The translations under genes were made by a program, and so were the position numbers. The notes under the pieces were generated by a model, which was given only the letters and a program-made list of their open reading frames with translations, had not been told where the DNA came from and searched no databases. A DNA stretch of 44,407 nt from a virus, in IMG/VR virus record IMGVR_UViG_3300044713_000046, positions 1 to 44,407 of that record; one strand, written 5' to 3'. Shown one piece after another: positions 10,383 to 34,146 of the stretch (the stretch's first letter is position 1; each line of letters begins with the position of its first letter).

Positions 10383-10716
10383 GCGCAAGAAACAGCCTGA
10401 CATTCAACTGCCGGCCGTTACCGACGACGCCTCTATCAGCACGACTACGATCTACCCGACCATTGAGGCGATGTTCCTTGAGGAAATTGCCTCAAAGCCT
10501 TGGTTTGAAAAGTTTTCACGTGAAACACGCAGGATGATCCGGTTCACGTTCATCACAGCGGTTGCTGAGACCATGCGCACGATCGCGTTTCGGATCAACA
10601 ACGACCAGGACACGCGCGTGTTCGATGAGTTCAGCAAGCAGATTCAGGCTTATGACTTGGAAATGCACGAAATGCGTGATCAGTATGCGTCTGCGATCTT
10701 AGGGTTGCCAAACTAA
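10375..10716 (+). CDS. Hypothetical helical protein upstream of portal, 113 aa
   Basis: After a short basic start (MTKRKKQ), residues about 30-100 are predicted helical (MFLEEIASKPWFEKFSRETR, then AVAETMRTIAFRINNDQDTR). It sits directly before, and overlaps, the portal start, so it may be a head-assembly or packaging accessory protein. That is inference from position. Confidence 0.6.
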   Translation: MTKRKKQPDIQLPAVTDDASISTTTIYPTIEAMFLEEIASKPWFEKFSRETRRMIRFTFITAVAETMRTIAFRINNDQDTRVFDEFSKQIQAYDLEMHEMRDQYASAILGLPN

Positions 10717-12794
10717 TGGTAATGGCGGTCAATAGCCCGACTGGCGGCGGCCCTACACGGTTCAAAAGCCAGACGGGCACGCTTGGCGATTGGTCAACGG
10801 AAGCGCCGGATGAGTATGACTGGTCCGGTAGTGATGATGGGTTCTTCCCGGTCACGCGGTTGCGGCAGCAGTACTTGGATTACCTGACCGCCAAGGTGCA
10901 GGAGTATGAAGAGCAGAAGCTATCGCGGCACTACTACCATGGCGCCCAATACACGCCGGAAGAGATACGCATTCTCCGAGAGCGACGTCAGCCAATCATT
11001 ACTATTAATCGGCTTGGTCGAAAGATCGACTCTATTGCCGGGCTTATTCTCCGCCTTCGACAGGACCCAAAGGCATACCCGCGTAATCCTAAGAACGGCG
11101 ACGGCGCGGAAGTTGCAACGCAATGCATCAGGACGGTGCTAGAGAGCAACGAGTGGTATTTCCTGGACAATTACGCCGTTACGCAAGCTGGCATTGAGGG
11201 TATTGCCGGCGTTGAGCTGAAGTTGATCCCTGGCGATCACGGCGATCCTGACCTAGGAATGGATTTCATTTTCGGAGATGACTTCTTCTACGATCCCAGG
11301 AGTTTCAAGCCTGACTTTAGCGATGCTAGATTTCTCGGGATAGCAAAATGGCTCGATGTAGAAGCTGCCGTAGAGCTGTTCCCCGACCGTGAGGAAGAAA
11401 TCCGCTCTCTTATGGTAGAGACTGGCTTCGACCTTACAACGCACGCGGACCGTGAATTCAAGTGGGTCTATGTCAATGAGCATCGCGTTCGCCTTGTTGA
11501 GCATTGGTATAAGCACAAGGGAATGTGGTACTGGGCATTTTATTGCAGCTTCATCCTGCTTGCACAAGGGGAGTCTCCGTTCCGCGATGAGCGTAACAGG
11601 CCTTGCCCTCGATTTATCATGTTTAGCGCTGCCGTCGATCATGATGGTGATCGCTATGGCTTTACACGTAATTTAAAGGGACCGCAGGATGAGATCAACG
11701 CGCGTCGGTCTAAGGCCCTTCATATTAGCAATGTTACACGCCTTACGCTGCAAAAGGGATCGGTTGACGACGTTGAGACAACCCGTCGTGAGGCTGCACG
11801 TCCCGATGGCGTTATTGAATATAACCCCGGCTTTGAGCCGCCGGCCGGTGCGGATAAGACGAACGATCTACAAGCCCACATGCTACTCCTACAGCATGCT
11901 ACGGCAGAGATAGACGGGTTTGCCAATGTCAATCCAGCGCTGATGACGCAGGATGGTAAGGATGAACATTCGGGAGTGGCAATTAACCTATTGCAAAAAG
12001 CTGGAATTGCAGAGATCGGAACATTCCTGCGCAACTACCGAGCCTGGAAAATCCGGGTGTACCGAGCCATCTGGAACACTATCCAGACCACTTGGCAGGC
12101 CGAGCGCTGGATTCGCGTTACTGACAACGACGGCGTTAAGCAATTCCTGGCCGTCAACAAGCTAGGACTCAATCAGTGGGGACAGCCAGAGATAACCAAC
12201 GCCGTTGGCTCGCTGGACGTAGATATCATCTTGGACGAGGGGCCGGACGTAGCAAACCTGATGCAGGACGCTTGGGAAGTTCTGTCTCAGATGCCTCCCG
12301 GAACGGTTCCGCCAGACGTTCTTATCGAATTGATGCCGCTACCGAACAGCGTCAAGAAGTCGATCCTGGAAAAAATGCAGCAGGCGCAGCAAGCTGCCGC
12401 GCAGAATCCTGATCCGAAGACTAAAGTTGAGATGATGAAGGGCCAGGTTGCGATGCAGCAGGGCCAGCAGAAGATGCAGATTGCTGCCCAGCAAGGCCAG
12501 GTCAAGCTGCAGGCTGAGCAGATCAGGGCGCAGGCTGAAGCGCAGAACGCTGCTCAGGACCAAGCACAGACGCAACTCGAATTCCGTATTCAGCAGGAGC
12601 GTGAGAACGCTGAGCGCCAGAAGCTAGCCATGGAAATGGAGCAGTCCCGGCGCGAGCATGAGTTCAAGATGGCTGAGTTAGCCGCGCAGCACAGTGCATC
12701 GCAGGCTGAACACGCTGAGCAGCGCAAGACTTCGCAGGTACAGCATGCGGCCAAGCGCAAGGCGGCCACCCAATCGAAGACAAAGGCGGCATAA
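10716..12794 (+). CDS. Portal protein, P22-like
   Basis: A 692-aa portal, the dodecameric channel at the head vertex. Recognisable features: an early RQPIITINRLGRKIDSIAGL segment (about residues 89-108), the FGDDFFYDPRSFKPDFSDAR region (about 186-205) and the later SGVAINLLQKAGIAE stretch, as in P22-type portals. The last about 140 residues are Gln/Ala/Glu-rich and helical, like the long C-terminal barrel of P22 portal (725 aa). The start ATG overlaps the previous stop; an alternative ATG lies 6 bp on. It works with TerL and later with the gp4-like and gp10-like proteins. Confidence 0.9.
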   Translation: MVMAVNSPTGGGPTRFKSQTGTLGDWSTEAPDEYDWSGSDDGFFPVTRLRQQYLDYLTAKVQEYEEQKLSRHYYHGAQYTPEEIRILRERRQPIITINRLGRKIDSIAGLILRLRQDPKAYPRNPKNGDGAEVATQCIRTVLESNEWYFLDNYAVTQAGIEGIAGVELKLIPGDHGDPDLGMDFIFGDDFFYDPRSFKPDFSDARFLGIAKWLDVEAAVELFPDREEEIRSLMVETGFDLTTHADREFKWVYVNEHRVRLVEHWYKHKGMWYWAFYCSFILLAQGESPFRDERNRPCPRFIMFSAAVDHDGDRYGFTRNLKGPQDEINARRSKALHISNVTRLTLQKGSVDDVETTRREAARPDGVIEYNPGFEPPAGADKTNDLQAHMLLLQHATAEIDGFANVNPALMTQDGKDEHSGVAINLLQKAGIAEIGTFLRNYRAWKIRVYRAIWNTIQTTWQAERWIRVTDNDGVKQFLAVNKLGLNQWGQPEITNAVGSLDVDIILDEGPDVANLMQDAWEVLSQMPPGTVPPDVLIELMPLPNSVKKSILEKMQQAQQAAAQNPDPKTKVEMMKGQVAMQQGQQKMQIAAQQGQVKLQAEQIRAQAEAQNAAQDQAQTQLEFRIQQERENAERQKLAMEMEQSRREHEFKMAELAAQHSASQAEHAEQRKTSQVQHAAKRKAATQSKTKAA

Positions 12795-12795
12795 G

Positions 12796-13221
12796 ATGGA
12801 TATGCGAGAGTTTCACAGGACGCTCGGCGAGTCTTTGGACGCATTGGACCGGGCAAGCGGGGCCGAAGAGCGTGTTAAGGGCGCCGAGCGCTTGCTTGCC
12901 AATAAGCAGCATGAGATTGACGCGCTGTCTGAGGCTCATGCTAAGCTAAAGAAGCAGTCTGATGATCATTTGGCAGCAAATCTTGCGCGCATGAATGAAG
13001 AGACTGAGAAGTGGAATGCATCCGTTGCTGATTTGAAGAGGCAGCATTTCGCACTTGAGCAGCGAAACAAGGAACAGATCGATAATTCCAGCTCGATGTT
13101 GACTAATATAAATACTGAGATTGGGGTTAGGCGCAAAGAACTTGATGCAATGCGAATTGAACACGAGCGGCGCAAGAACGAGGCTGTGGAATATGCCAAC
13201 AGGCTCGCTGGCGCTTCCTGA
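12796..13221 (+). CDS. Coiled-coil protein, 141 aa
   Basis: Starts MDMREFHRTLGESLDALDRA one base after the portal stop. Almost the whole length is charged heptad-like helix (HEIDALSEAHAKLKKQSDDH and on). It is a candidate head-assembly or scaffold-like factor, but a separate scaffold gene is present at 19901. No family recognised. Confidence 0.65.
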   Translation: MDMREFHRTLGESLDALDRASGAEERVKGAERLLANKQHEIDALSEAHAKLKKQSDDHLAANLARMNEETEKWNASVADLKRQHFALEQRNKEQIDNSSSMLTNINTEIGVRRKELDAMRIEHERRKNEAVEYANRLAGAS

Positions 13222-13526
13222 TGGCCGGCAAGGTCTTTCTGTCTGAGTATACCTGTTCGTCCGTGCGGGGAATGCAGGCAATGGTGGCGCCTGCGGTAGT
13301 TGTGCAAACGCCGATAACGGCGTCTGGCGCGGCGCAGAGTTTCAATCCGTTCAATGGCGCAACTGAGATGGTTCGTATTTCTGTTGATACGGGCGGGCCG
13401 GTGTGCGTCAAGTTCGGCACCAATCCGTCCGCTACGATCAATGACGAGCGCTGGGCGCCCAACCAGACCGAGGCAAGGGTTGTTCGGCCAGGTGACACTG
13501 TTTCCGTCATAGTGAGCCCCACATAA
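13221..13526 (+). CDS. Small beta-rich structural protein, 101 aa
   Basis: Val/Ala/Thr-rich with strand-forming segments (AMVAPAVVVQTPITASGAAQ; MVRISVDTGGPVCVKFG) ending VVRPGDTVSVIVSPT. The pattern resembles small beta-sandwich decoration or cement proteins. Coupled to the previous gene by TGATG. Assignment to the virion is inferred from location and fold pattern. Confidence 0.55.
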   Translation: MAGKVFLSEYTCSSVRGMQAMVAPAVVVQTPITASGAAQSFNPFNGATEMVRISVDTGGPVCVKFGTNPSATINDERWAPNQTEARVVRPGDTVSVIVSPT

Positions 13527-13964
13527 ATGTTTTCTCAGAGATCGTTTCAAGGCGAGGTCTTTGTGGACCATCGCGCTAGTCCCGGCTTGCCTGAGCACAT
13601 CGCTCGATTGGCCGGATATGACCCGCAGCAGTGCAAGGAGGGGCAGTTTTTCGAAGCTGCATCCAAGTACTGTTCTCACTGTAGAGCGCGAGTTATTTTG
13701 AATCCAAGCCGGACTCGCGAGCGTGCGACCTGCTTGAAGTGCGCCAGTCATTATATTTGTGATTGGTGCGATGCAGAGCGCCGGCAACCCGGCTACGTCC
13801 ACAAGCCTTTCGAGGCTAAACGTGATGAGGCTATATCATGGCAAAGCGCACCTTCTCTGGTGGTTCCTTCTCATACACAGCAGTCGCCCTTGGTACTGCG
13901 CCCGCAAGCGGATCAGGAATGGGGATCATCTGCGGTAGCGCCACTCAATACATCGACATTTTAG
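13527..13964 (+). CDS. Zinc-ribbon-containing phage protein
   Basis: A 145-aa frame with three CxxC-type pairs (CSHC, CLKC, CDWC, about residues 48-80) forming one or two zinc sites. They are preceded by VDHRASPGLPEHIARLAGYD, a sequence pattern seen in phage proteins next to structural genes. The last 42 codons overlap the next gene (13838), which has a convincing start, so the C-terminal part here is probably dictated by the overlap or the gene once ended earlier. Role unknown. Confidence 0.65.
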   Translation: MFSQRSFQGEVFVDHRASPGLPEHIARLAGYDPQQCKEGQFFEAASKYCSHCRARVILNPSRTRERATCLKCASHYICDWCDAERRQPGYVHKPFEAKRDEAISWQSAPSLVVPSHTQQSPLVLRPQADQEWGSSAVAPLNTSTF

Positions 13965-14353
13965 AATGCACGGTGCAGGGGACAGCGACGGCGAGTAATG
14001 TGTTTGGCGGGTGTCTTGCTCGTTGTAGCACTGCCAGCGCAACCAGGACGGCGCTTACTTCGCCGGCATCGGATGGTCCGCAGAATCCGTTTACTGCTGT
14101 TCTTGGCGCTCCGGCGGGCACTTATACTGCCGCAACCACGATGGGCACTCCATCTTCGGCCGCGACAGACACCAAGTTCCCGCTGGTGATCAACGGCTTT
14201 GGCGGTTTGTATCGCGAGAACTTTGCTCCGACCCAGCAATTCTCAATTTACGGAACTACCACGCCATTGGCTGAAGCGATTATTTTCAATTCCACTAGTT
14301 TTGCTGGAACGACGGGCTCAGCAGCGGTTGCGATGATTTACGAGCCGATGTGA
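13838..14353 (+). CDS. Beta-rich structural protein, 171 aa
   Basis: Starts MAKRTFSGGSFSYTAVALGT. It is Gly/Ala/Thr/Ser-rich with short strands and ends AVAMIYEPM; hydrophobic but with no membrane helix, typical of a virion surface or decoration protein. It begins inside the preceding zinc-protein gene (127-bp overlap). No family recognised. Confidence 0.6.
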   Translation: MAKRTFSGGSFSYTAVALGTAPASGSGMGIICGSATQYIDILECTVQGTATASNVFGGCLARCSTASATRTALTSPASDGPQNPFTAVLGAPAGTYTAATTMGTPSSAATDTKFPLVINGFGGLYRENFAPTQQFSIYGTTTPLAEAIIFNSTSFAGTTGSAAVAMIYEPM

Positions 14354-14361
14354 GGTGAGCC

Positions 14362-14769
14362 ATGGCTGCCGGAACACCAACGGACACTGATAGCTATTTT
14401 TTGTCTCAAAGCCCGGTATTTCAGCACCGGGTACAGACCGCTGTGATTGTGTACATGGAAGTAGTGGAGAGCGAAATTCCTACTGGCGTTACGGGAACCA
14501 TGCCGGATGTGGTACACCAGGCTCGTATGAATTTTGTCAAATCGGTAATGAGCCCTTCGAGTTTCACTACTTGGATGACGCAGTTTGTACAAGCTGCGGC
14601 CTCGGATGCCAATGTGGTCTCTGCGGCAACTAATGCTACTGTGACCTACACTCCTATCACTTCGTCTTCGATTGGGGATACTGCAGCAGCAGAGGGCGGA
14701 CTTGTAACCACGACATTGATATCGAACGCAGTCGCTGCTTCGTTCAATACGTTCGTGCCTGGTATCTGA
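14362..14769 (+). CDS. Hypothetical structural protein, 135 aa
   Basis: MAAGTPTDTDSYFLSQSPVF, then a helical central part (MPDVVHQARMNFVKSVMSPS) and a Thr/Ala-rich C-terminus. It starts 8 bp after the previous stop behind GAGGTGAGCC. It belongs to the cassette between portal and scaffold. No family recognised; virion location is inferred. Confidence 0.6.
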   Translation: MAAGTPTDTDSYFLSQSPVFQHRVQTAVIVYMEVVESEIPTGVTGTMPDVVHQARMNFVKSVMSPSSFTTWMTQFVQAAASDANVVSAATNATVTYTPITSSSIGDTAAAEGGLVTTTLISNAVAASFNTFVPGI

Positions 14770-17045
14770 TGTCGCAAGGTTGCCGGCCTGGACCAGGCAG
14801 TGGCGCGTCTGCAAATCCGGGTCAGATACTGATCAATCCGCAATTCATGCTGACTTCGGGAGGCTATGAACTTCTCGATTTAATGAAGATGTTGGATTTT
14901 TCTGCCGGTTGGACTACTGCCAGTAGCGGCGACATGTCACCTGCCAATATGGACGCGAATGGCTATCCGACATCGTTACCGCTTGGGGCAGTTCGTTCTC
15001 AAACGTCTACCCCAGGGGCGGGTCGGATCGGTCAATCTGCCCAGCATTATGTTCTGAGATTTGATGGCACAGGTACGGCTACCTGTGATGGAACGGTTGT
15101 AAGCGGTTCTCTAACTGGAGCGGGTCTCAACAATCGAGTCGTGATGGACACGACCGGCCATACCAACGTATTCATTGGCATTTCGGCAACGCCAGTGACT
15201 AATATGCACTTCTATCACATTGATGACGAGCCTGCTTTCTTGGCTGGTAAGATTGCAGGAACACAATTCAAGCAGCGGATCAAGCAGGCTCAGTCACCTG
15301 TTTTTCGTAATTTGAATTGGTTCGGGCCAGAGTTTGGTGGAACTAATCTGTGTAACGTTACTAACTGGGCAGCGCGCAAGCCAACAACTTATGTCAGTTA
15401 CAATGGGGATGAGTTCCGATCCTCATTATTTGCCGGAACCACCACGAACTCGGGGAATGATTACTCGATCACGTTCGGGTCTGGTGCGCCGGTCGATAAG
15501 CAGATCATCCATTTGTACTTTAATGCATCTCAAGCAGATACTTCGACGTGGAATGGCAGTTCTAGCACTCTGACGTTCGCCTCTGGCACGCCTGGCACGG
15601 TTAATTGGGGGGCGACGCTTCCTGCGAGCGTTGTTGCAAACGTTCCCATCTTGTTTGGCGGTTTTGCCGGGTTCAATGCTCCGCCGGATATTGTGCAATA
15701 CAGCACATATTATGTAAAGACCGTCACAGGGGCGCAGACTTTTACGATTTCGAAAACGCCAGGCGGTGCGGCTATTAATTTTTCTACGTCTGGTGGCAGT
15801 GGTGTTGTGGCCGTTCGCGCACCCTCTCTGAACCTAAATAGCACTGTAGCTGTGCCTATTTGGGATCAGCGTATGCAGATTATGTGGGGGCCCGGTGCTA
15901 ACCTGATAGCACTTAATCCAAACCAAAACTCAGGAACAACCAGCTCTATAGCTACCCTTGTCTACGATGCTGGTATCAACGTTTGGACGTTGTGGGGCGG
16001 CACAGCTTCAAACCCAGCCGGAATTGGTAGCGGCATTCCGCCTGAGGTATTTCTGCAGCTTTGTGCCGAGATAGGTTGCCATCCTTGGTTTTGCTCGCCG
16101 CAGTTTGCCTGCGATCCAATGACGGATTGGCACACACAGCTTGCCACGTATTGCAAGGGTAACGCACCATCGTGGATGGTACCGCGATTTGAAATTCTTA
16201 ATGAACCATGGAATATCGGTAATTCGGTTTCTGACTATGCACAGGCTAAGAGTTATTTCAACTGGGGCACCGAGGACCTGGTTAATTTCGTTGGTAAGGT
16301 CGCATCAACTGCCGGTCAGGACATAAGTGCTGTCTATGGAGGCACGCCAGGGACAGGCGCTCAATACCATCTGATGGTCAACGTTCAGACCGGGAATGCG
16401 CCTGGGACTGATAATGATATGCTGAACTCATCGACTTATGTCGGACAAGCGGCAGCAGCACAGTCTGGTTATATAAAGGCTGCGGCAAAGAATTACCTGA
16501 CGCATGTTTCTGTCAACCAGTATATGAACTCAGGGGAAAATCAATCGACTGCTGCTACTGCTTGGAACACTGCGACCGGTGGCACGATACAGCTGGTGAT
16601 CGATGCGTACCTCGATGGCACAGGACCTGGCGGCAATGGGTTCACCCCAACGGGTGTTGGCTTTGCTGCTTCTGCTGGAGCCAATTCGAATGGTGTGCTC
16701 GGGATGTCATCCGTTTATAGCTCGACATTTACATGGTGCCAGGGATTTACAAATCTTGCCGGCAACAAGATCAGGATGTGCGGGTATGAAGGTGGATTGG
16801 AGTTGGGCAACAACAACTTTCCGTCTGCGACCGTATTGAATTTCTGGAATGCGTGCATGAACAGCGGCACAAATACAAAGTTGTATTGCACGCAGAATTA
16901 TAACAATTTCCTGTCTGCTGGCGGTGAGCGTCCTGCTCTGTTCCAGCTTTCAGGACAAACTCAAGACAATTCATGGTCTTGCTTAATAGATGTCTATCAA
17001 TCGCCTGATCCGCTTGAGTGGCAGGCAGTGGTGAGCTTTGCCTGA
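14769..17045 (+). CDS. Glycoside-hydrolase-like virion protein (clan GH-A type)
   Basis: A 758-aa protein. Residues about 360-740 look like a (beta/alpha)8 hydrolase: FEILNEPWN puts a candidate acid/base at Glu479, and MCGYEGGLE puts a candidate nucleophile at Glu674. That is the NEP...E arrangement of clan GH-A enzymes such as cellulase-like families. The first about 350 residues are beta-rich and could be a virion-attachment or carbohydrate-binding part. There is no signal peptide, consistent with assembly into the particle. It may degrade capsule or exopolysaccharide during adsorption. It is coupled by TGATG to both neighbours. Exact GH family not assigned. Confidence 0.7.
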   Translation: MSQGCRPGPGSGASANPGQILINPQFMLTSGGYELLDLMKMLDFSAGWTTASSGDMSPANMDANGYPTSLPLGAVRSQTSTPGAGRIGQSAQHYVLRFDGTGTATCDGTVVSGSLTGAGLNNRVVMDTTGHTNVFIGISATPVTNMHFYHIDDEPAFLAGKIAGTQFKQRIKQAQSPVFRNLNWFGPEFGGTNLCNVTNWAARKPTTYVSYNGDEFRSSLFAGTTTNSGNDYSITFGSGAPVDKQIIHLYFNASQADTSTWNGSSSTLTFASGTPGTVNWGATLPASVVANVPILFGGFAGFNAPPDIVQYSTYYVKTVTGAQTFTISKTPGGAAINFSTSGGSGVVAVRAPSLNLNSTVAVPIWDQRMQIMWGPGANLIALNPNQNSGTTSSIATLVYDAGINVWTLWGGTASNPAGIGSGIPPEVFLQLCAEIGCHPWFCSPQFACDPMTDWHTQLATYCKGNAPSWMVPRFEILNEPWNIGNSVSDYAQAKSYFNWGTEDLVNFVGKVASTAGQDISAVYGGTPGTGAQYHLMVNVQTGNAPGTDNDMLNSSTYVGQAAAAQSGYIKAAAKNYLTHVSVNQYMNSGENQSTAATAWNTATGGTIQLVIDAYLDGTGPGGNGFTPTGVGFAASAGANSNGVLGMSSVYSSTFTWCQGFTNLAGNKIRMCGYEGGLELGNNNFPSATVLNFWNACMNSGTNTKLYCTQNYNNFLSAGGERPALFQLSGQTQDNSWSCLIDVYQSPDPLEWQAVVSFA

Positions 17046-18655
17046 TGGCAACCACTAATGACAATACCGGCACAGCATCAACGACTGCTGCGGTTGCTAC
17101 CTTAAGCGTTACGTTTACTGTTAGCGCTTCTGCTACAGCTATTTGGGCAGGTCTTGAGACTGACGTAGCCACGTCGGCGGTTACTTGCGTTTATGATCCT
17201 ACTGGAGTCAATCAGTCTTTTACTGCTATCGGTTCTGCCATCGGTGGCGGTGGTCAACACATCTACGCTTTTGGTTTGGTTAATCCAGGTGCGTCAGGTT
17301 CTAGAGTTGTCAAATTTAGTTGGACGACTTCCTCACGTGGTGCTTGCGGTGTCCAATCGTATTTAGGCACAGCCACTACTAGTGTTGCCAATACGTTTTA
17401 TAATAACAATACTGCCACTGGAGCAACCGGCACTACAGCACCTGTAGTGATAACCAGTCAAACAGGTGACTTGGTAGTTGGTCTTGTATGCGCTGACAAT
17501 ACGATCAGCTCGGTAAGCGGAACTCAGATTTGGCTTGATAACGCTCAATCTGATGATGGTGGCCATTACACGACTGGAGCCGCAACAGTCACATTGACTG
17601 CTGGTGTTCTCAGCGGATCGAATTGGGCGCACCAGGGATGTAGTGTTAGGCAATCGACAGCAGTTAGTCTACCTCCTGGCGGTCGATCGTTTGATACACC
17701 ACAGCCTGATCGCAACACCAATACCTACAATCCGCAGCTAAGGCATTGGCAGGCAGCCGCTCGGTTTCTGCTGATCGGGCAGGATCAGTTTCCGCCTGGA
17801 GTCATGCCAGGCAATCCGGTCTACCAACCGCCTCCTGCTTGGTTGGTGCCAGAGCGTTGGGCGCAATGGCGCTCTTGGACGTGGAGTTACAACCTAAACC
17901 TGATCGGGAAGGATCAGTTTCCACCAGGAATATTTCCTGGTAATCCGGTATACCAGCCTCCACCGGCTTGGCTCGCACCTGAAAGATGGGCGCAATGGCG
18001 TAGCTTTGCCTGGCAGTACAATCCGCTGCTGCATGTGGTGGCTCAGCCTCCCGGTGTCCAGCTTGATGAGACTCCTGCGGCCTGGCTGGTTCCGGAACGG
18101 TTTGCTCAGTGGCGTACCTGGACGTGGAGCTATAACCTAAATCTGATTGGCCAGGATCAGCTGCCGCCTGGCAGCATATGGGACAGGCTGGTCCCTGCAT
18201 GGTTCTTTACTGACCCGTTCGCGCGGTGGCGTTCTTGGACGGGCTCTTACAATCTCAACCTGATCGGGAAGGATCAGTTACCGACCGGAGATCAGACCAA
18301 CTACTTGCCGGTTGGCAATGCGTGGCGTCCTGAATCGCCTCAGCAGAACATTCTTGCAACGATACTTGCAGTTGTTCCGGCGTTGCCGCCTGGCAAGCAG
18401 GTTTGGGAGCTGTCACCTCGTGCTGCCGATCCGTTTGCGCAATGGCGCTCTTGGACTGGCAGCTACAATCCTAACCTGATCGGTCAGGATGCCTTCCCTG
18501 TTGGTGCGCAATGGGATGATGCGTCACCGAGGGCGGCGCAGCGTGGAATAGACTTCCAGGCTCAGAACCTGTTGCCGACATTATTGTCGGTCATTGCTCA
18601 GTTACCGCCGGGCAGTCAACTCTACGAACGGCCTCGCTTTTTTTTTCTAATGTAG
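17045..18655 (+). CDS. Repeat-rich structural protein, zero-frame part
   Basis: 536 aa from the ATG overlapping the hydrolase stop. Residues 1-about 205 are a beta-rich Thr/Ser/Gly domain. After that come repeats built on WAQWRSWTWSYNLNLIGKDQ followed by PPG and PPPAWLVPER; five WRxW/F copies lie here. The frame ends abruptly, reading FFFLM-stop right after nine T (18638-18646). A -1 shift there continues the same repeats to 19233. Without the shift the protein is truncated. It is likely a fibre- or surface-type virion protein; function unknown. Confidence 0.7.
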   Translation: MATTNDNTGTASTTAAVATLSVTFTVSASATAIWAGLETDVATSAVTCVYDPTGVNQSFTAIGSAIGGGGQHIYAFGLVNPGASGSRVVKFSWTTSSRGACGVQSYLGTATTSVANTFYNNNTATGATGTTAPVVITSQTGDLVVGLVCADNTISSVSGTQIWLDNAQSDDGGHYTTGAATVTLTAGVLSGSNWAHQGCSVRQSTAVSLPPGGRSFDTPQPDRNTNTYNPQLRHWQAAARFLLIGQDQFPPGVMPGNPVYQPPPAWLVPERWAQWRSWTWSYNLNLIGKDQFPPGIFPGNPVYQPPPAWLAPERWAQWRSFAWQYNPLLHVVAQPPGVQLDETPAAWLVPERFAQWRTWTWSYNLNLIGQDQLPPGSIWDRLVPAWFFTDPFARWRSWTGSYNLNLIGKDQLPTGDQTNYLPVGNAWRPESPQQNILATILAVVPALPPGKQVWELSPRAADPFAQWRSWTGSYNPNLIGQDAFPVGAQWDDASPRAAQRGIDFQAQNLLPTLLSVIAQLPPGSQLYERPRFFFLM

Positions 18656-19233
18656 CGCCGTTTGCTTATTCGGTTGCGCCTTGGCCTATAGCGCTTCTTA
18701 CGGCGCTGCCGCCAGGGAAGCAATCATTTGCTTTACCGCCATTAGGGTGGGTTCAGCGGCAAGACTCGCCGCAGCTAAATACGATACCGCTGCTTACGGC
18801 TACAGTTCCTGGGTTGCCGCCGGGTGTGCAGTTTTATGAACTGCCGCCTCGTGTTGCTGATGCATTCGCGCAGTGGCGTAGCTGGACTGGAAGCTACAAT
18901 CTTAACCTGATCGGTCAGGATGCATTTCCGGTCGGGGCACAGTGGGATGATTTATCGCCGGCTGGTAAGGTTCAGTGGCAGGTTACGCCACAGCCTTACA
19001 TGCTGGCGCTACTTGCGACACCGGCGGTACCGCTACCTCCTGGCGTTCAGATGTACGCTCTGCCGCCGCTTGGCGCGATTGACAACTTCGCTCAGTGGCG
19101 CACCGGAGCAAGTTTCAACATTAACCTGACGCCACCGCCACCGCCACCGCCGCCCACAACCGTTGTCTACAATACCGTGTTGCTGTCGATCCCCGGCGGC
19201 ATGTTCAGCATACCCGGAGACCCGCCGTCATGA
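18647..19233 (+). CDS. Repeat-rich structural protein, -1 frame continuation
   Basis: This open frame has no ATG; the best internal start is TTG 18814. It continues the repeats of the preceding frame: WPIALLTALPPGK, then FAQWRSWTGSYNLNLIGQDA and a final FAQWRT copy, an octaproline run and a VLLSIPGG tail. The fused product would be about 729 aa. The join needs a -1 shift on the T9 run (or one more T in the true sequence). Programmed frameshifting, transcript slippage, a real mutation or an assembly error are all possible. Confidence 0.65.
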
Positions 19234-19691
19234 TCCGCAAGATATTTGAGTTCGCAGCGTTCGTGGCGTTATTTGTTGTAGGCGGGTTGTACATTGCTTA
19301 TCTGGTTAATACGGCGTTCGGGCAGGCTAATCCGCCGAGTTGGACGCGATCAGCGCCTGCGACGGATACGGGTTATCCGCCAGGTGCGCAGCCTTTTGTC
19401 ATTACGGGGACAGGAACCACCACAGCTACAGCCACCACTGCTCAGCCTGCGGCCTATCAAAACAGCTTCCTCTGTACGCTGGTTATGACTGAAGCGGGCG
19501 GTACAGGAATTACTGTCAATGGCTCGATCACCAATACAATCAATGGAACGGTTACATTTTCGCAGCTGGGGCAACTGGTTGTGACGTTTACGCCGTGCCT
19601 TCCGAACAATGGTTCGAACATGGTGATCACTGCGCCGACATCGACGGCAGCTACTGCCAGCTCGATAGTCGCGACTGGCTTCTACTACTGA
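19230..19691 (+). CDS. Membrane-anchored or secreted beta-rich protein, 153 aa
   Basis: The N-terminus MIRKIFEFAAFVALFVVGGL is a hydrophobic anchor or signal segment (about residues 5-30), followed by a Thr/Gly/Ala-rich domain with strands (SFLCTLVMTEAGGTGITVNG and on) and two Cys. It overlaps the repeat-protein stop by ATGA. Last gene before the structured leader. No family recognised. Confidence 0.6.
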   Translation: MIRKIFEFAAFVALFVVGGLYIAYLVNTAFGQANPPSWTRSAPATDTGYPPGAQPFVITGTGTTTATATTAQPAAYQNSFLCTLVMTEAGGTGITVNGSITNTINGTVTFSQLGQLVVTFTPCLPNNGSNMVITAPTSTAATASSIVATGFYY

Positions 19692-19900
19692 GTTTCGACC
19701 GTCGGCAGCCTCTTACTCATCTGAGGAACGCTGCCAAAGCCGCGAGTAGCTTAGACTCGCAGAGGGATCGTGCACAGTCCCCCTAGGGGTGAAAGGCCCC
19801 ACATTAGGTTTCGCCCGCCTGAGCGATATCAGGCACCGCTTCCCGGTCTGAGCGATATCAGTCCGCCCCGCTAATCCCCAAAGCGAAATCTTGAGGAACC
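19692..19900 (+). promoter_or_regulatory. Structured leader before scaffold and capsid genes
   Basis: A 209-bp gap with several foldable elements. GCGAGT-AGCTTAG-ACTCGC lies at 19742-19760 and the palindrome CCCCTAGGGG at 19780-19789. Two copies of CTGAGCGATATCAG lie at 19819-19832 and 19848-19861; the first sits in a 6-bp-stem hairpin, GCCTGA-GCGATA-TCAGGC. GAGGAACC then precedes the ATG at 19901. It could be a 5' untranslated RNA regulating the most highly expressed head genes, or protein-binding sites. No T-run terminator. Confidence 0.5.
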
Positions 19901-20863
19901 ATGCCCGCCAAGACCAATGAGGAACTGTACCAGGAAGCAGAACGCGCGCTGATCGGTGAAGCGATTGCTGAAACTGAGCAGGAAATCCACGATTCTGCCT
20001 TTGACAATGCGCCAGACGACAACGACGGGGACACTTCCCTTGAGGAAATGGACTCCGATGACGTTGTTGATGACGACGTGTCCGAGGAAGATGAAGAGGA
20101 TGACATTCCGGAGGAAGGCGAAGGCGAATATGACGATGAGCCACCGCCGGAAAAGCCTCAGCCACAGCAGGAAGAGCGACAGCAGCGGGGTATCCCGCCT
20201 GGCCGGTTACGTGAAGAGGCTGAAGCCCGTAGAGCGGCAGAAGCTGAAGCACGTGAATTACGCGTCAGAATTGAAGCTCTAGAGCGCAACCGATATCAGC
20301 AGCCACCTCCGCAACAGCAACCGCCACAGCAGCAGGGTCCGGACATGTTTGCCGACCCGGAAGGCTGGGCAGCGGCTGAGCGTACGCGGATCATGAATGC
20401 GGTTCAGCTTGATCGTGTCAATATGAGTCTTGCGGATGCCGCCGAGCAACACGGCGACAAGTTCCAAGAGGCTTACAAGGCGATCAATAGCCTGAATCCG
20501 CAGAGTCCGGCCGATATGGCTCATGTGCAACGCATTTGGAACGCTCCCAATCCGGGGCGTGAACTGATGAAGTGGCACCAGCAGCAAAGTCTGTTGCATG
20601 AGATCGGCAATGATCCGACTGCATACCGGCAAAAGCTGCGTGACGAGCTGTTGGCCGATCCTGATTTCCGCAAAGAGCTGATTTCAGGCATGCGCAACGA
20701 TGCTGTGAACGGCGGAAATACGCGCGTACGACTTCCCCCATCCCTCAATGGTGCAACCGGCGGCACATCTCACCGCGGCAGAGACGGCAGAACCAGCCGT
20801 GACACTGCTGCAACTTCACGGTCGATAGAACGAGAAATCTTCGACTCGGCCTTTGATGACTAA
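19901..20863 (+). CDS. Scaffolding protein
   Basis: A 320-aa protein immediately before the capsid gene. It has an extremely acidic region (about residues 40-80), a Pro/Gln-rich centre with charged coiled coil (REEAEARRAAEAEARELRVR, about 107-126), a helical C-terminal part and a basic end: the usual layout of podovirus scaffolds, which nucleate procapsid assembly and leave. HDSAFDN near the N-terminus and FDSAFDD at the very C-terminus are matching acidic motifs. No protease gene was recognised, so it probably exits intact, as in P22. Assignment rests on position and composition. Confidence 0.75.
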   Translation: MPAKTNEELYQEAERALIGEAIAETEQEIHDSAFDNAPDDNDGDTSLEEMDSDDVVDDDVSEEDEEDDIPEEGEGEYDDEPPPEKPQPQQEERQQRGIPPGRLREEAEARRAAEAEARELRVRIEALERNRYQQPPPQQQPPQQQGPDMFADPEGWAAAERTRIMNAVQLDRVNMSLADAAEQHGDKFQEAYKAINSLNPQSPADMAHVQRIWNAPNPGRELMKWHQQQSLLHEIGNDPTAYRQKLRDELLADPDFRKELISGMRNDAVNGGNTRVRLPPSLNGATGGTSHRGRDGRTSRDTAATSRSIEREIFDSAFDD

Positions 20864-20907: not shown

Positions 20908-22056
20908 ATGGCCGTCACTACCGTTTCTGCTAACAACAAACTGATTGTCTTCCGGAAGGAAGTCTATCGGGAATACATCCGCCAAAACCTGTTCTCGCCG
21001 TATATCGGCGCCGAACTGACCGCCATCATCCGGGTGATTCCGGACCTTAAGAAGGGCGGCGAGCAGATCAACATCCCGTTGGTTGCCAGGCTGAAGAACC
21101 AGCCGATTGCCACCGGTACGCTGGTCGGCAACGAAGAGGCGATCGACAATTATGGCGACAGGGCATGGATCGACTGGGCTCGTAACGCCGTACGCATTCC
21201 GCGCTCGGAAGAGCAGAAATCCTCCATCGACCTGTTCGGCCAGGCTCGGCCGCTGCTGGACGATTGGGGCAAGGAACTGCAGCGTGATGAGATTATTGAC
21301 ACGTTCTACGCTGTACCGCTCGCATCTACCGCTCCTGCGGGCCTTGGTACTAATAACGGCCAGCGCGTCAACGGTGCTCTGTTTGATGCTGCTACTTCTG
21401 CGCAGCGCAATACATGGATAACCGACAACGCTGATCGGGTGCTGTTCGGCGGCGCCCAGGGTAACCTGTCGGCCGGCAACTGGGCAACCAGTGCGGCTAA
21501 CGTCACGTCGGCCATGACGCTATCGGCGGCGGCGCTTGCCAAGATGAAGCGTCTTGCCAAGAAGGCTAATCCGCGCATTCGGCCTTACAAGCTCAAGAAT
21601 GGCCGTGAGTACTTCATCGTGTTCGTCGGCAGCAATTGCTTCCGCGATTTACAGAACGATACCACGATCATCACGGCAAATACGCAATCCCGTCCCCGTG
21701 AAGGCGATGGCCTGGACGCCAATCCGCTCTTCCAGGATGGCGATTTGCTCTACAACGGCATGATCATCCGGGAAATCCCCGAGATGGATATCCGGTTGCC
21801 GACCACCTATACGACCGCCGGTGCCAGCTCGATCCAGATCGCTCCGGTGTTCCTGTGCGGTCAAGGCGCTATGGCCTGGTGCTGGGGCAGGATGCCCACG
21901 CCCACGTTCCTCAAGGAAGATGACTACCAGTTCTTCCGGGGCGTTGGTGTCATGATGGCCTACGGCATGAAGAAGATCGCCAAACTCAACCCCACGAACA
22001 ACTATAGGGAATGGGGCGTATTCACCGGCTACTTCGCTTCGGCGGCCGATAGCTGA
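20908..22056 (+). CDS. Major capsid protein
   Basis: 382 aa; AAGGA lies 9 bp before the ATG. The sequence FRKEVYREYIRQNLFSPYIG (about residues 11-30), the VARLKNQPIATGTLVGNEEA loop and the C-terminal VMMAYGMKKIAKLNP are typical of HK97-fold capsids of the N4 gp56 / Phage_capsid_3 type, which are mostly not cleaved from a pro-domain. Strong codon bias toward C/G at third positions compared with neighbours fits high expression. Sits directly after the scaffold gene, as expected. Confidence 0.85.
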   Translation: MAVTTVSANNKLIVFRKEVYREYIRQNLFSPYIGAELTAIIRVIPDLKKGGEQINIPLVARLKNQPIATGTLVGNEEAIDNYGDRAWIDWARNAVRIPRSEEQKSSIDLFGQARPLLDDWGKELQRDEIIDTFYAVPLASTAPAGLGTNNGQRVNGALFDAATSAQRNTWITDNADRVLFGGAQGNLSAGNWATSAANVTSAMTLSAAALAKMKRLAKKANPRIRPYKLKNGREYFIVFVGSNCFRDLQNDTTIITANTQSRPREGDGLDANPLFQDGDLLYNGMIIREIPEMDIRLPTTYTTAGASSIQIAPVFLCGQGAMAWCWGRMPTPTFLKEDDYQFFRGVGVMMAYGMKKIAKLNPTNNYREWGVFTGYFASAADS

Positions 22057-30359: not shown

Positions 30360-30420
30360 ACATCCGCATACGACGGATATCACGGCACCGTAGATCGCTA
30401 TGCACACTATGAAGGTCAAC

Positions 30421-31560
30421 ATGCGGCGCTTCCTCCCATTCCTCGCTCTGCTTCTGCCTTCCTTGGCTCAAGCGCAAGGCACTCTGCCGATCGCCCTGCA
30501 ACAACAGTTCAGCTTTACGAATTGCCAGACGTTTACGAACGCATGCGGCACGCCATTACAGGGCGGCCTGCTGTACTTCTACCAGGTCGGCACTGTTGCC
30601 ACGGTGCAACAGTCATTCCAGGATACAGGGCTTACGCTGACGAATCCATGGCCTTTAACCCTGGATGCCAACGGCCGCATCCCACTATTTTACCTCGCTA
30701 ACGGCGCCGTACACGCCCGGTTAACGGACGCAAATGGCGTTGTCCAGTTCGACATTCCGAACGCTCTGGTCATTGGTCCGAGTTCGGGCGGTGGTGGTGG
30801 CGGGTCGGTCGATCCAACGACGGTCCTGTCAACCGGTGACATCAAGTTCAGGATGACACAGGAGTTCGTGACGGGCTGGGTCAAGATGAACGCCCAGACG
30901 ATCGGCAATGCGATTTCCGGGGCAACCCAGCGCGCCAATGCTGATACGCAAGCTTTGTACGTCTATTTCTGGACGAATTGCTCGCAGCCCACATCCAATT
31001 CAGCCAACCATTGTCCGGTCACCGGCGGTCTTGGCGCCAATGCTCTGGCCGATTTCAACGCCGGCAAGCCTCTCCAACTTCCTGATTGGCGCGGCCGCGG
31101 TCCCATGGGCGTTGACGACATGGGCAATACGGCAGCTGGCCGCATCTTTAATCAGAACGTTACAAGCGGCGGTGGGGATGGTGTAACGACGCCAGGGGCA
31201 AGCGGCGGCGAAGCATTGCACACGATGTCGTTAAGTGAATTGGTAACGCACAATCATTCTGCAAGCTCTTCGTCGTCCGATAGCGGCCACGGCCATAGTG
31301 ACAGCGGTCACGGTCATGGCTTTAGCACAGGAAGTGGTAATACCCACTTCGCCACGCGGGGCACCGGGCCTAATGCAGATACGGTTGGCGGATCAACCAT
31401 ATCACTAGGCGATACGTTCTCTATCAATACGGGATTTGCCAATATCCAGACCGGCTTTGCCAATATCACGACATCGACCACAGTCAACAATAACGGTTCA
31501 TCGACGCCCTTCAATCAGATGCAGCCCTTCATTATGGGCAGCTGGTACGCGAAGCTCTGA
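30421..31560 (+). CDS. Tail fibre with collar domain and HxH motifs
   Basis: 379 aa from ATG 30421 (AAGG five bases upstream; 30400 and 30409 are alternatives). It has an N-terminal signal-like segment MRRFLPFLALLLPSLAQAQG, a beta-rich shaft, a Gly6 linker (about residue 120) and a collar-type domain with LPDWRGRGPMGVDDMGN and PFNQMQPFIMGSWYAKL at the end. Between them lies SDSGHGHSDSGHGHGF, repeated HxH motifs like those that bind metal at the tips of trimeric fibres. Probable receptor-binding fibre. The signal peptide is unusual for a virion protein. Confidence 0.75.
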   Translation: MRRFLPFLALLLPSLAQAQGTLPIALQQQFSFTNCQTFTNACGTPLQGGLLYFYQVGTVATVQQSFQDTGLTLTNPWPLTLDANGRIPLFYLANGAVHARLTDANGVVQFDIPNALVIGPSSGGGGGGSVDPTTVLSTGDIKFRMTQEFVTGWVKMNAQTIGNAISGATQRANADTQALYVYFWTNCSQPTSNSANHCPVTGGLGANALADFNAGKPLQLPDWRGRGPMGVDDMGNTAAGRIFNQNVTSGGGDGVTTPGASGGEALHTMSLSELVTHNHSASSSSSDSGHGHSDSGHGHGFSTGSGNTHFATRGTGPNADTVGGSTISLGDTFSINTGFANIQTGFANITTSTTVNNNGSSTPFNQMQPFIMGSWYAKL

Positions 31561-32325: not shown

Positions 32326-32870
32326 TGGTCGCACCCGCCAACATACGAATAAATACGCAGGTTCCATTCCCGGCCATGGTTGTCGGTTCTGGCCCGATCA
32401 CGGTTGCCAAGACGGTCGGCGGCGTCTGGACGATCGGCGCCAATGGCCGGATTATCAACACGGCCAACCCCGGTCTTGTGGCAACGGACTATGTGCTTGT
32501 TTGGGATGACGTTGCGCAGGCATGGCTTAAGATATCGTTGCCGAACCTGATTACGCAGGCGGCTCAAGTAAGAACGCAACGCAGTGTTACCTCAAGCCCG
32601 ATTACGGTTGGCCCTACCGATCAAATCCTCAATGTCAACATCTCGGCAGGAACACCATCCTGCACATTGCCGCAAGCTTCTAGCCGGGCTGGATTGGCTG
32701 TTACGTTCAAGGACGTTGGGGCTAATTTCGTGGCGCATCCGTTGAACGTCACGGCATTTGCTGGCGACACGATTGATGGGGTCGGCGGCATGACACTTAA
32801 TCAAAATCGTATGGCCGTGACGCTCGTTCCGTTCAATGACGGCACCAATATCGGCTGGGCTGTGGAGTAA
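32325..32870 (+). CDS. Fibre-domain protein, 181 aa
   Basis: MVAPANIRINTQVPFPAMVV, then a short carbohydrate-module-like part, and a C-terminal half (SSPITVGPTDQILNVNISAG and AVTFKDVGANFVAHPLNVTA) typical of phage fibre beta-domains, in which a planar N/T-rich repeat ends in D.TIDG. It overlaps the 31564 gene and is followed 4 bp later by the spike gene. Likely a virion surface protein. Confidence 0.6.
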   Translation: MVAPANIRINTQVPFPAMVVGSGPITVAKTVGGVWTIGANGRIINTANPGLVATDYVLVWDDVAQAWLKISLPNLITQAAQVRTQRSVTSSPITVGPTDQILNVNISAGTPSCTLPQASSRAGLAVTFKDVGANFVAHPLNVTAFAGDTIDGVGGMTLNQNRMAVTLVPFNDGTNIGWAVE

Positions 32871-32874
32871 TCAG

Positions 32875-34146
32875 ATGTTGAGAAAATGGCTCGCCCTGCT
32901 ATCCGTGGCGGGGATCGCGGCGCTATTGCTTGCGCAGACCTATCCGGGTTCTATTTCGCCTCAGACGATAGCCGTCAATCAATTCCCGTTCAATGCTGTG
33001 TGCGATGGCGTTACCAATGATGCGGCGGCCATTCAGAACGCGATGAATTCAGTATCTTCCAGCGGCGGAACGGTTCTGTTTCCATCAGGGCGCATTTGCA
33101 AGGTAAACACCTCACTTTCGATCGGGAACGGATCATCCAGCGCGGCTTCCACTAACAATGGAATGGTGTTGGATTGTGCGTCTAATCCACTGTCAACGTC
33201 CTTCTTTGGTGGGATGTCCGGCACAGGTGGTTGCCGCATTCTCTGGGGCGGCAGCGGTAGTACTGGGGTGATCAACGTATTTGGACCCTATCAGGGATTG
33301 AGCATTCGCAACCTGTTCATTGACTGCAATCTGGTGGCCACATCGGTCGGCTTGAATACGATCTCGTTACAGGGCGCAGAAATAAGAAACAACGTATTCA
33401 ACAACTGTCAGGACAGCATCGAGCTAGCTACTGTTCCGCAGGGGGGCATCTTCGGTGACTCCAATGCCGAAACAAATCATTTCGAGAACAACATCATTTC
33501 TATGCCAAACATCGCTAATGCAACTGGCATCCTGTTGACCGGTGAAGTCACGGACACAACTTCCGTTAGCTTTGCCAATATTTTCACCAATACGAAGATA
33601 TTGCTGCCGTTGGTCAATACCACGATGATCGGCATTCAAGTACAGCGGGCAGATTCCAATCAGTTCTACAATACGATTGTATTCGGTGGCGGGACAGGCT
33701 GCACAGCAGTCCTTTTTGATTACAGTTCGGTTAATACGTTCCCGGTAAGCAACGTGTTCTTTGGGATCGATCCTGGCCCCAATCACTGCATGGGATCGTT
33801 CGCCAACCTCGGCACACCTACCGCGGGCGACAAACCCAATTACGTTTATGGGCTGATAGAGACCAATGGCGCCACCTGTCCGAATATAGCCAATCTATCC
33901 TGCTTCGAGTCAAACAAGATGGTGATGTCACCCGGCGGCAACACGAGCAATGTGCAGTATCTACCGATCCCTTCCACGATTGCAGGCTTACCGGTGTGCA
34001 ATGCGGCTGCTAAGGGCTCTACGGCGTTCGTCAGTGATACCGTGGGCAGTGCCGCCCCTACCTTTCATTTAATCGTCGCGGGAGCGGGCGCAACCACTGT
34101 CAATAGCCTGGTTTCCTGCAACGGGACAAACTGGGTCTATGATTGA
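32875..34146 (+). CDS. Tailspike-like protein, pectate-lyase beta-helix
   Basis: 423 aa; GGAG lies about 8 bp before the ATG. After a hydrophobic signal-like start (MLRKWLALLSVAGIAALLLA) comes FPFNAVCDGVTNDAAAIQNA and GGTVLFPSGRICKVNTSLSI, the signature of pectate_lyase_3 (right-handed beta-helix) tailspikes: D(G).TDD..A.Q.A......V..P.G.Y. The rest has regular beta-helix turns (FENNIISMPN; NQFYNTIVFGG). It probably binds or cleaves host surface polysaccharide. Catalytic residues cannot be assigned by eye. Confidence 0.75.
   Translation: MLRKWLALLSVAGIAALLLAQTYPGSISPQTIAVNQFPFNAVCDGVTNDAAAIQNAMNSVSSSGGTVLFPSGRICKVNTSLSIGNGSSSAASTNNGMVLDCASNPLSTSFFGGMSGTGGCRILWGGSGSTGVINVFGPYQGLSIRNLFIDCNLVATSVGLNTISLQGAEIRNNVFNNCQDSIELATVPQGGIFGDSNAETNHFENNIISMPNIANATGILLTGEVTDTTSVSFANIFTNTKILLPLVNTTMIGIQVQRADSNQFYNTIVFGGGTGCTAVLFDYSSVNTFPVSNVFFGIDPGPNHCMGSFANLGTPTAGDKPNYVYGLIETNGATCPNIANLSCFESNKMVMSPGGNTSNVQYLPIPSTIAGLPVCNAAAKGSTAFVSDTVGSAAPTFHLIVAGAGATTVNSLVSCNGTNWVYD

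Follow-up and report, generated by a model that had tools for sequence, protein, structure and literature searches.

A predicted clan GH-A glycosidase, and candidate exopolysaccharide depolymerase, in an exchangeable cargo slot between the portal and scaffold genes of a podovirus

Characterised phage depolymerases are almost all found in tail fibres or spikes, and depolymerases occur both virion-bound and as a soluble form released at lysis (PMC5380687). Glycoside hydrolases (GHs) are also encoded by soil viruses, as for an active GH5 endomannanase (PMC6786970) and an active GH75 chitosanase (PMC9485262), both interpreted as auxiliary metabolic genes (AMGs). The record analysed here, a 44.4-kb virus DNA (44,407 nucleotides, the whole of which is called the window), encodes a putative glycosidase among its head genes. 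With a probability of about two in three, this protein is an exopolysaccharide (EPS) depolymerase of an unnamed clan GH-A family carried in an exchangeable late cassette, a reading in which we infer catalysis, EPS substrate, late expression and delivery.

The enzyme ORF (Table 1) is intact and, as the initial annotation had it, its translation contains FEILNEPWN (E479) and MCGYEGGLE (E674). No in-frame ATG, GTG or TTG that would extend it upstream was found. Also as first described, the enzyme has no signal peptide, either by eye or by a heuristic, and neither P0001 nor P0002 carries the Sec or Tat signal peptide of a secreted enzyme. The viral contig L001 encodes a protein 74% identical to the enzyme, and the codon comparison of this pair gives a pS of 0.80 (saturated) for a pN of 0.157. 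Amino acids have thus been kept while synonymous sites became saturated, and the enzyme is under strong purifying selection. Such selection, together with a homologue this close in an otherwise unrelated phage, means that the ORF did not arise by chance, and the pS/pN values of the pair rule out a pseudogene as well. Searches of Pfam, NCBIfam, PHROGs, PDB sequences and GenBank phages with the enzyme sequence gave no match, and naming the family in this way was dropped. Therefore, the family is unnamed, with neither a Pfam, NCBIfam or PHROG model nor a solved relative by sequence.

The fold was predicted by AlphaFold2 with the homologue alignment (pTM 0.80). The pLDDT is 75-96 over most of the barrel core, and residues 255-391 are poorly modelled. 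Strands of the barrel are placed near residues 21, 178, 438, 473, 534, 579, 669 and 720. N478-E479 stand just past strand 4 (473-476) and E674 within strand 7 (669-677), while R180 is on the strand at 178-181, Y585 on that at 579-586, and W736 comes after the 719-726 strand region. The model thereby displays the features of clan GH-A, namely a barrel, the N-E pair at strand 4, the Glu on strand 7, the Arg of strand 2, the His/Tyr of strand 6 and the Trp of strand 8. The TIM barrel anticipated for this protein is present in the prediction and Glu479 and Glu674 both occupy the expected strands, an agreement that concerns strand positions only. Among 76 aligned homologues, six residues never vary (W440, P444, E475, N478, E479, N482), and conservation is at least 90% for R180, Y585, Y673, E674, G675, G676 and W736; R180, N478-E479, Y585, E674 and W736 form the clan GH-A signature. 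The stretch of residues 206-415 is missing from the aligned plasmid-borne bacterial homologues.

Structural comparison by VIA-align gave Z-scores of 21.5 for GH51, 19.5 for heparanase and 19.4 for beta-glucuronidase (GH79), 18.9 for GH39, 17.9 for GH164 and 17.4 for GH5_4; clan GH-A enzymes or comparable barrel glycosidases filled the top rows. Foldseek by itself gave weak matches, the best being GH5_4 at E 0.01, and no whole-domain match of significance was found between the enzyme fold and viral proteins. The predicted fold and the conserved signature residues strongly support a clan GH-A barrel, and they back the hydrolase class first proposed. Membership of GH5 (PF00150) was rejected, with no Pfam hit and an hhalign probability of 0.4% against 11 GH5-type proteins. 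GH51, GH39 and GH79 have the best structural Z, with values that differ by about 3 units at most, and no Pfam or PDB-sequence match; the Bradyrhizobium members of GH39 were too few for mapping catalytic residues. A catalytically dead barrel serving as a lectin or decoration domain would suit the head-region location, as barrel folds can be recruited to bind, but it is highly improbable given that both catalytic Glu and the other signature residues are conserved over the 76 homologues.

The initial annotation had placed the enzyme between portal and scaffold and not with the tail fibres. This is confirmed, as the gene is downstream of a P22-type portal gene (PF16510) and upstream of a scaffold-like gene and of the major capsid protein (MCP) gene. 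About 14 kb separate it from the tail genes, among them the gene of a beta-helix tailspike-like protein (32836-34146). A tailspike-type depolymerase (a beta-helix trimer among tail genes) was rejected for this predicted TIM barrel, whose gene lies between those of portal and scaffold. The start of the enzyme gene overlaps the stop of g135 as TGATG, and the gene after the enzyme most likely starts by a TGATG overlap too. These stop/start overlaps suggest that g135, the enzyme and the following repeat protein are a translationally coupled trio.

Table 1. Features of the window around the enzyme gene, in order of position.
Feature	Position	Strand	Remarks
P22-type portal protein	10716..12794	+	PF16510, 6e-98
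Portal-scaffold cargo slot	12795..19900	.	43-7341 bp in relatives
Cassette wholly replaced in sister phage L009 (its 12800-20340)	13524..19162	.	Flanks 86-97% identical
135-aa partner gene (g135)	14362..14769	+	26%, E about 1e-8, syntenic to pre-enzyme gene of L001
Clan GH-A glycoside-hydrolase-like enzyme	14769..17045	+	758 aa, no signal peptide, TGATG-coupled to preceding gene
Beta-rich domain (residues ~60-150), barrel strands 1/2	14946..15218	+	Common to bacterial homologues
~200-aa stretch (residues 206-415), strands 2/3	15384..16013	+	Low model confidence
Codon of Glu479, predicted acid/base	16203..16205	+	Invariant in 76 homologues; model strand 473-476
Codon of Glu674 (YEGG, strand 7), predicted nucleophile	16788..16790	+	At least 90% conserved; model strand 669-677
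Next cassette gene	17045..18655	+	Probable ATG start 17045; beta-rich N-terminal domain and W/P-rich repeats
Scaffold-like protein, acidic	19901..20863	+	By position and homologues in related phages
Major capsid protein (MCP)	20908..22056	+	phrog_334, 6e-64

The N-terminal beta-rich domain of the gene after the enzyme recurs in L001, where it is also found fused to GH5, and in L009. Its predicted model (17045-17680) has a pLDDT of 44, and the domain may be an anchor or a carbohydrate-binding module. A universal pair of enzyme and beta-sandwich is not claimed, as the profile of this domain missed the look-alike neighbours in L023, L024 and L231. The same gene includes tandem W/P-rich repeats of roughly 40-45 aa each (17771-18951), which continue into another ORF (18814-19233). 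Similar repeat proteins, though of other sequence, also close the cassettes of L009 and L001. Sec signal-like or membrane N-termini, such as MRRFLPFLALLLPSLAQA, are found in the window in a collar-type tail protein (30400-31560), in the tailspike-like protein and in a 153-aa cassette protein (19230-19691). Signal-like N-termini are unusual for tailed-phage virion proteins, and the tailspike-like protein of L009 has one too.

The interval between portal and scaffold was surveyed in 60 loci with a portal and an MCP (41 once near-identical MCPs were removed). It spans 43-7341 bp, whereas the scaffold-MCP gap is 20-152 bp. Many relatives have an almost empty slot, so its cargo is dispensable. When filled, it includes by Pfam GH5 (L208, 9.6e-24), SGNH/GDSL (L121, 8.8e-12; L151, 1.4e-10), pectate-lyase-like (L146, 6e-9), LamG (L152, 8e-18) and Wzy_C O-antigen ligase proteins (L189, 4.6e-9; L185 and L182, under the curated cut-off). 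Non-carbohydrate cargo is represented by DUF7178 (L154) and LPD23 (L181), and several more proteins have no assignment. The slot is rich in polysaccharide functions, not exclusive to them. The sister phage L009 encodes portal and scaffold proteins about 99% identical to those of the window, with most aligned DNA blocks above 90%, and the enzyme is absent across its whole record. The two phages also diverge at the tailspike-like gene, at the gene that follows the MCP and at the ejection-protein genes, most of these being host-interaction genes. The portal-scaffold interval is thus an exchangeable, hypervariable cargo slot. No description of it was found in the literature searched and, of the results here, this slot and its cassette swap are the more novel.

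Signal-bearing SGNH-type proteins are found in the slot of the Bradyrhizobium prophages L121 (12802-14385) and L123 (reverse complement 12255-14024), the assignment in L123 resting on a motif only. Wzy_C-like membrane proteins are encoded among phage structural genes in L182 (7542-8687), L185 (2127-3281), L189 (7533-8705) and L015 (6544-7719), the first three within the slot. As judged from sequence, such O-antigen ligase/polymerase proteins suggest surface-polysaccharide conversion. Several unrelated cargo enzymes share a motif [FW]x(0-3)HG just past the signal peptide (AFTHG, AWTHG, AFWHG, AWPRHG or SFTHG), as in L208:4865-8318, L163:5556, L174:5462, L151:7581 and L015:9890, some of these cases being homologous. 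The motif is found in 24 of 1311 ORFs overall and could conceivably be a sorting tag.

The enzyme family is not restricted to one phage type. L001 is an otherwise different phage: at E 1e-4, BLAST matched none of its portal, scaffold and MCP to those of the window, and its cassette sits after the MCP. There, the gene right after the homologous enzyme (12245-14473) combines a GH5 cellulase domain (1.6e-13) with TIG domains, a signal peptide and the beta-rich domain described above for the gene after the enzyme, giving two different barrel hydrolases in tandem. Family members stand beside head or connector genes in phages of five MCP PHROG families, i.e., 334 (window), 212 (L015), 371 (L021), 283 (L023) and 9953 (L231), the enzyme being upstream of the portal in L231. 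On the jumbo-phage contig L016, the enzyme domain is fused to collagen-like repeats in a tail-fibre-like design.

This recurrence beside head genes and the L016 fusion, collagen-like repeats being typical of virion fibres, are consistent with a structural part of the virion, located on head or neck, that would digest the matrix as the particle nears the cell. The position between portal and scaffold, the absence of export and the coupling to cassette neighbours argue in the same direction. However, no known virion-binding domain was found in the enzyme, and several slot proteins of sister phages have Sec/Tat-like signals, an unexpected feature in a virion component made in the cytoplasm. Of 54 slot ORFs with 240 aa or more, some of them probably spurious frames, 33 had such signals by a heuristic. 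Two tail proteins of the window have signal-like N-termini as well, so a signal, or the lack of one, cannot decide the question of virion binding. The enzyme may instead be soluble and freed at lysis, clearing the matrix round the burst cell and aiding progeny dispersal as a halo-type depolymerase. The lack of a signal peptide and the late-gene location fit with this, depolymerases being known in both forms (PMC5380687), and the signal-bearing slot enzymes of sister phages would reach the same substrate through export. A soluble enzyme needs no head-cluster location, yet the family recurs there. Virion binding and lysis release are about equally probable, each falling somewhat short of even odds, and the virion-bound, possibly capsid-borne depolymerase of the initial annotation stays a hypothesis. 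That a soil podovirus lineage keeps a recombination-exchangeable portal-scaffold slot for surface-polysaccharide tools and here deploys a new-family TIM-barrel depolymerase on head or neck, and not on the tail, is as a whole a tentative and rather doubtful proposal.

Distant homologues of the enzyme were identified by tblastn on Rhodobacterales plasmids, several of them being RTX calcium-binding proteins. A single-protein query gave no match in bacterial genome contigs; an alignment query then succeeded. Profile-led scans led to more viral loci and to 80 bacterial loci, mostly in Rhodobacterales and also in Bradyrhizobium, Cyanobacteria, Planctomycetota and Saprospiraceae. The bacterial kin are RTX calcium-binding or signal-bearing proteins, and a Sec or Tat signal peptide is carried by L044 as well as by the phage homologues L015 and L021. 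Among 142 genes neighbouring 46 bacterial homologues, 31 encode glycosyltransferases (13 GT1/GT4, 10 GT2) or Wzx-type flippases (8). No GT1/GT4, GT2 or Wzx family had two or more hits in a control of 102 genes, mostly from the same contigs and away from the homologue. As single-hit families of the control were listed for the first 25 only, the Fisher p was computed for 0-3 control hits and ranges from 1e-8 to 8e-6. The Bradyrhizobium japonicum homologue L044, with a Tat-like signal, is surrounded by what reads as an EPS-type locus (rml genes, glycosyltransferase, acyltransferase and flippase). In a maximum-likelihood tree, the enzyme of the window groups with L001 and L015 (100/100), and these three with L021, L017 and the B. 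japonicum protein (100/99), on long branches. The bacterial members are candidate enzymes of alphaproteobacterial EPS.

The closest MCP relatives (67-68% identity) are prophages in three of the 242 genomes of a Bradyrhizobium set. The best MCP match among 397 genomes of the order is at 38%, and none was found at E 1e-60 among 385 genomes of the class. A Bradyrhizobium-like host is thus likely, the closest MCP relatives being confined to prophages of this set, and the rhizobial setting proposed in the initial annotation is supported. Its exopolysaccharide target gains indirect support from the EPS-locus kin and the other slot cargo. The enzyme could also be an AMG that feeds the host by degrading plant or soil polymers, the interpretation given to active soil-virus hydrolases (GH5 endomannanase, PMC6786970; GH75 chitosanase, PMC9485262). 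This is unlikely, considering the lack of a secretion signal, the structural-gene location, the kin in EPS-synthesis loci, the action of other slot proteins (SGNH esterases, Wzy/WaaL-like ligases) on surface polysaccharides and the little obvious benefit in feeding a host about to lyse.

Under the preferred reading of an EPS depolymerase, the gene product would be a retaining glycosidase from an uncharacterised family of clan GH-A, its gene probably having been captured from an alphaproteobacterial EPS locus by a podovirus of Bradyrhizobium-like hosts. Host matrix polysaccharide would be cut by double displacement, with E479 as predicted acid/base and E674 as predicted nucleophile. The head-gene location and the coupled run of g135, enzyme and repeat protein imply probable late expression, and the enzyme, having no signal peptide, would reach its substrate on the virion or through lysis release. 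The exchangeable slot would let related phages swap one surface-polysaccharide tool for another. The ORF, its purifying selection, the fold, the signature residues, the slot variability, the cassette swap and the EPS-locus kin form the observed basis of the depolymerase reading. Against it, sequence does not connect the enzyme with a characterised GH family, and the slot is almost empty in many relatives and elsewhere includes non-carbohydrate and unassigned proteins. In addition, the tailspike-like protein of the window already resembles a polysaccharide-binding tool, so that needing another is an assumption.

If this reading is true, the head-cluster slot is a second, modular site of host-surface adaptation besides the tail, where GH-A and GH5 hydrolases, SGNH esterases, pectate-lyase-like and lectin-like proteins and O-antigen ligases would be swapped between related phages. 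Some soil-virus glycoside hydrolases called AMGs may likewise cut bacterial matrix and not plant polymer.

The enzyme presumably shares with tailspike and tail-fibre depolymerases (PMC5380687) the role of removing a polysaccharide barrier, but those are mostly trimeric beta-helices on fibres or spikes, whereas it is a predicted TIM barrel encoded with head genes. Like the soil-virus hydrolases interpreted as AMGs (PMC6786970, PMC9485262), it is virus-encoded and relates to soil metagenomes; those belong to other families and are considered as degraders of plant or fungal polymers, whereas the family context points here to bacterial EPS. With GH51, GH79, GH39, GH164 and GH5 of clan GH-A, it shares the (beta/alpha)8 barrel, N-E past strand 4, E on strand 7 and the R/Y/W residues. 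It is only 8-16% identical to them, without a sequence-profile match, and differs in that strands 1 and 2 are separated by the beta-rich domain and strands 2 and 3 by the ~200-aa stretch. PslG belongs to GH39, also in clan GH-A. As for glycoside hydrolases of EPS operons such as PslG (Psl) and PelA (Pel), the bacterial homologues sit among EPS biosynthesis genes. Unlike PslG and PelA, the phage copy lacks a signal peptide and is encoded within a phage head cluster, the likeness drawn here being one of gene context.
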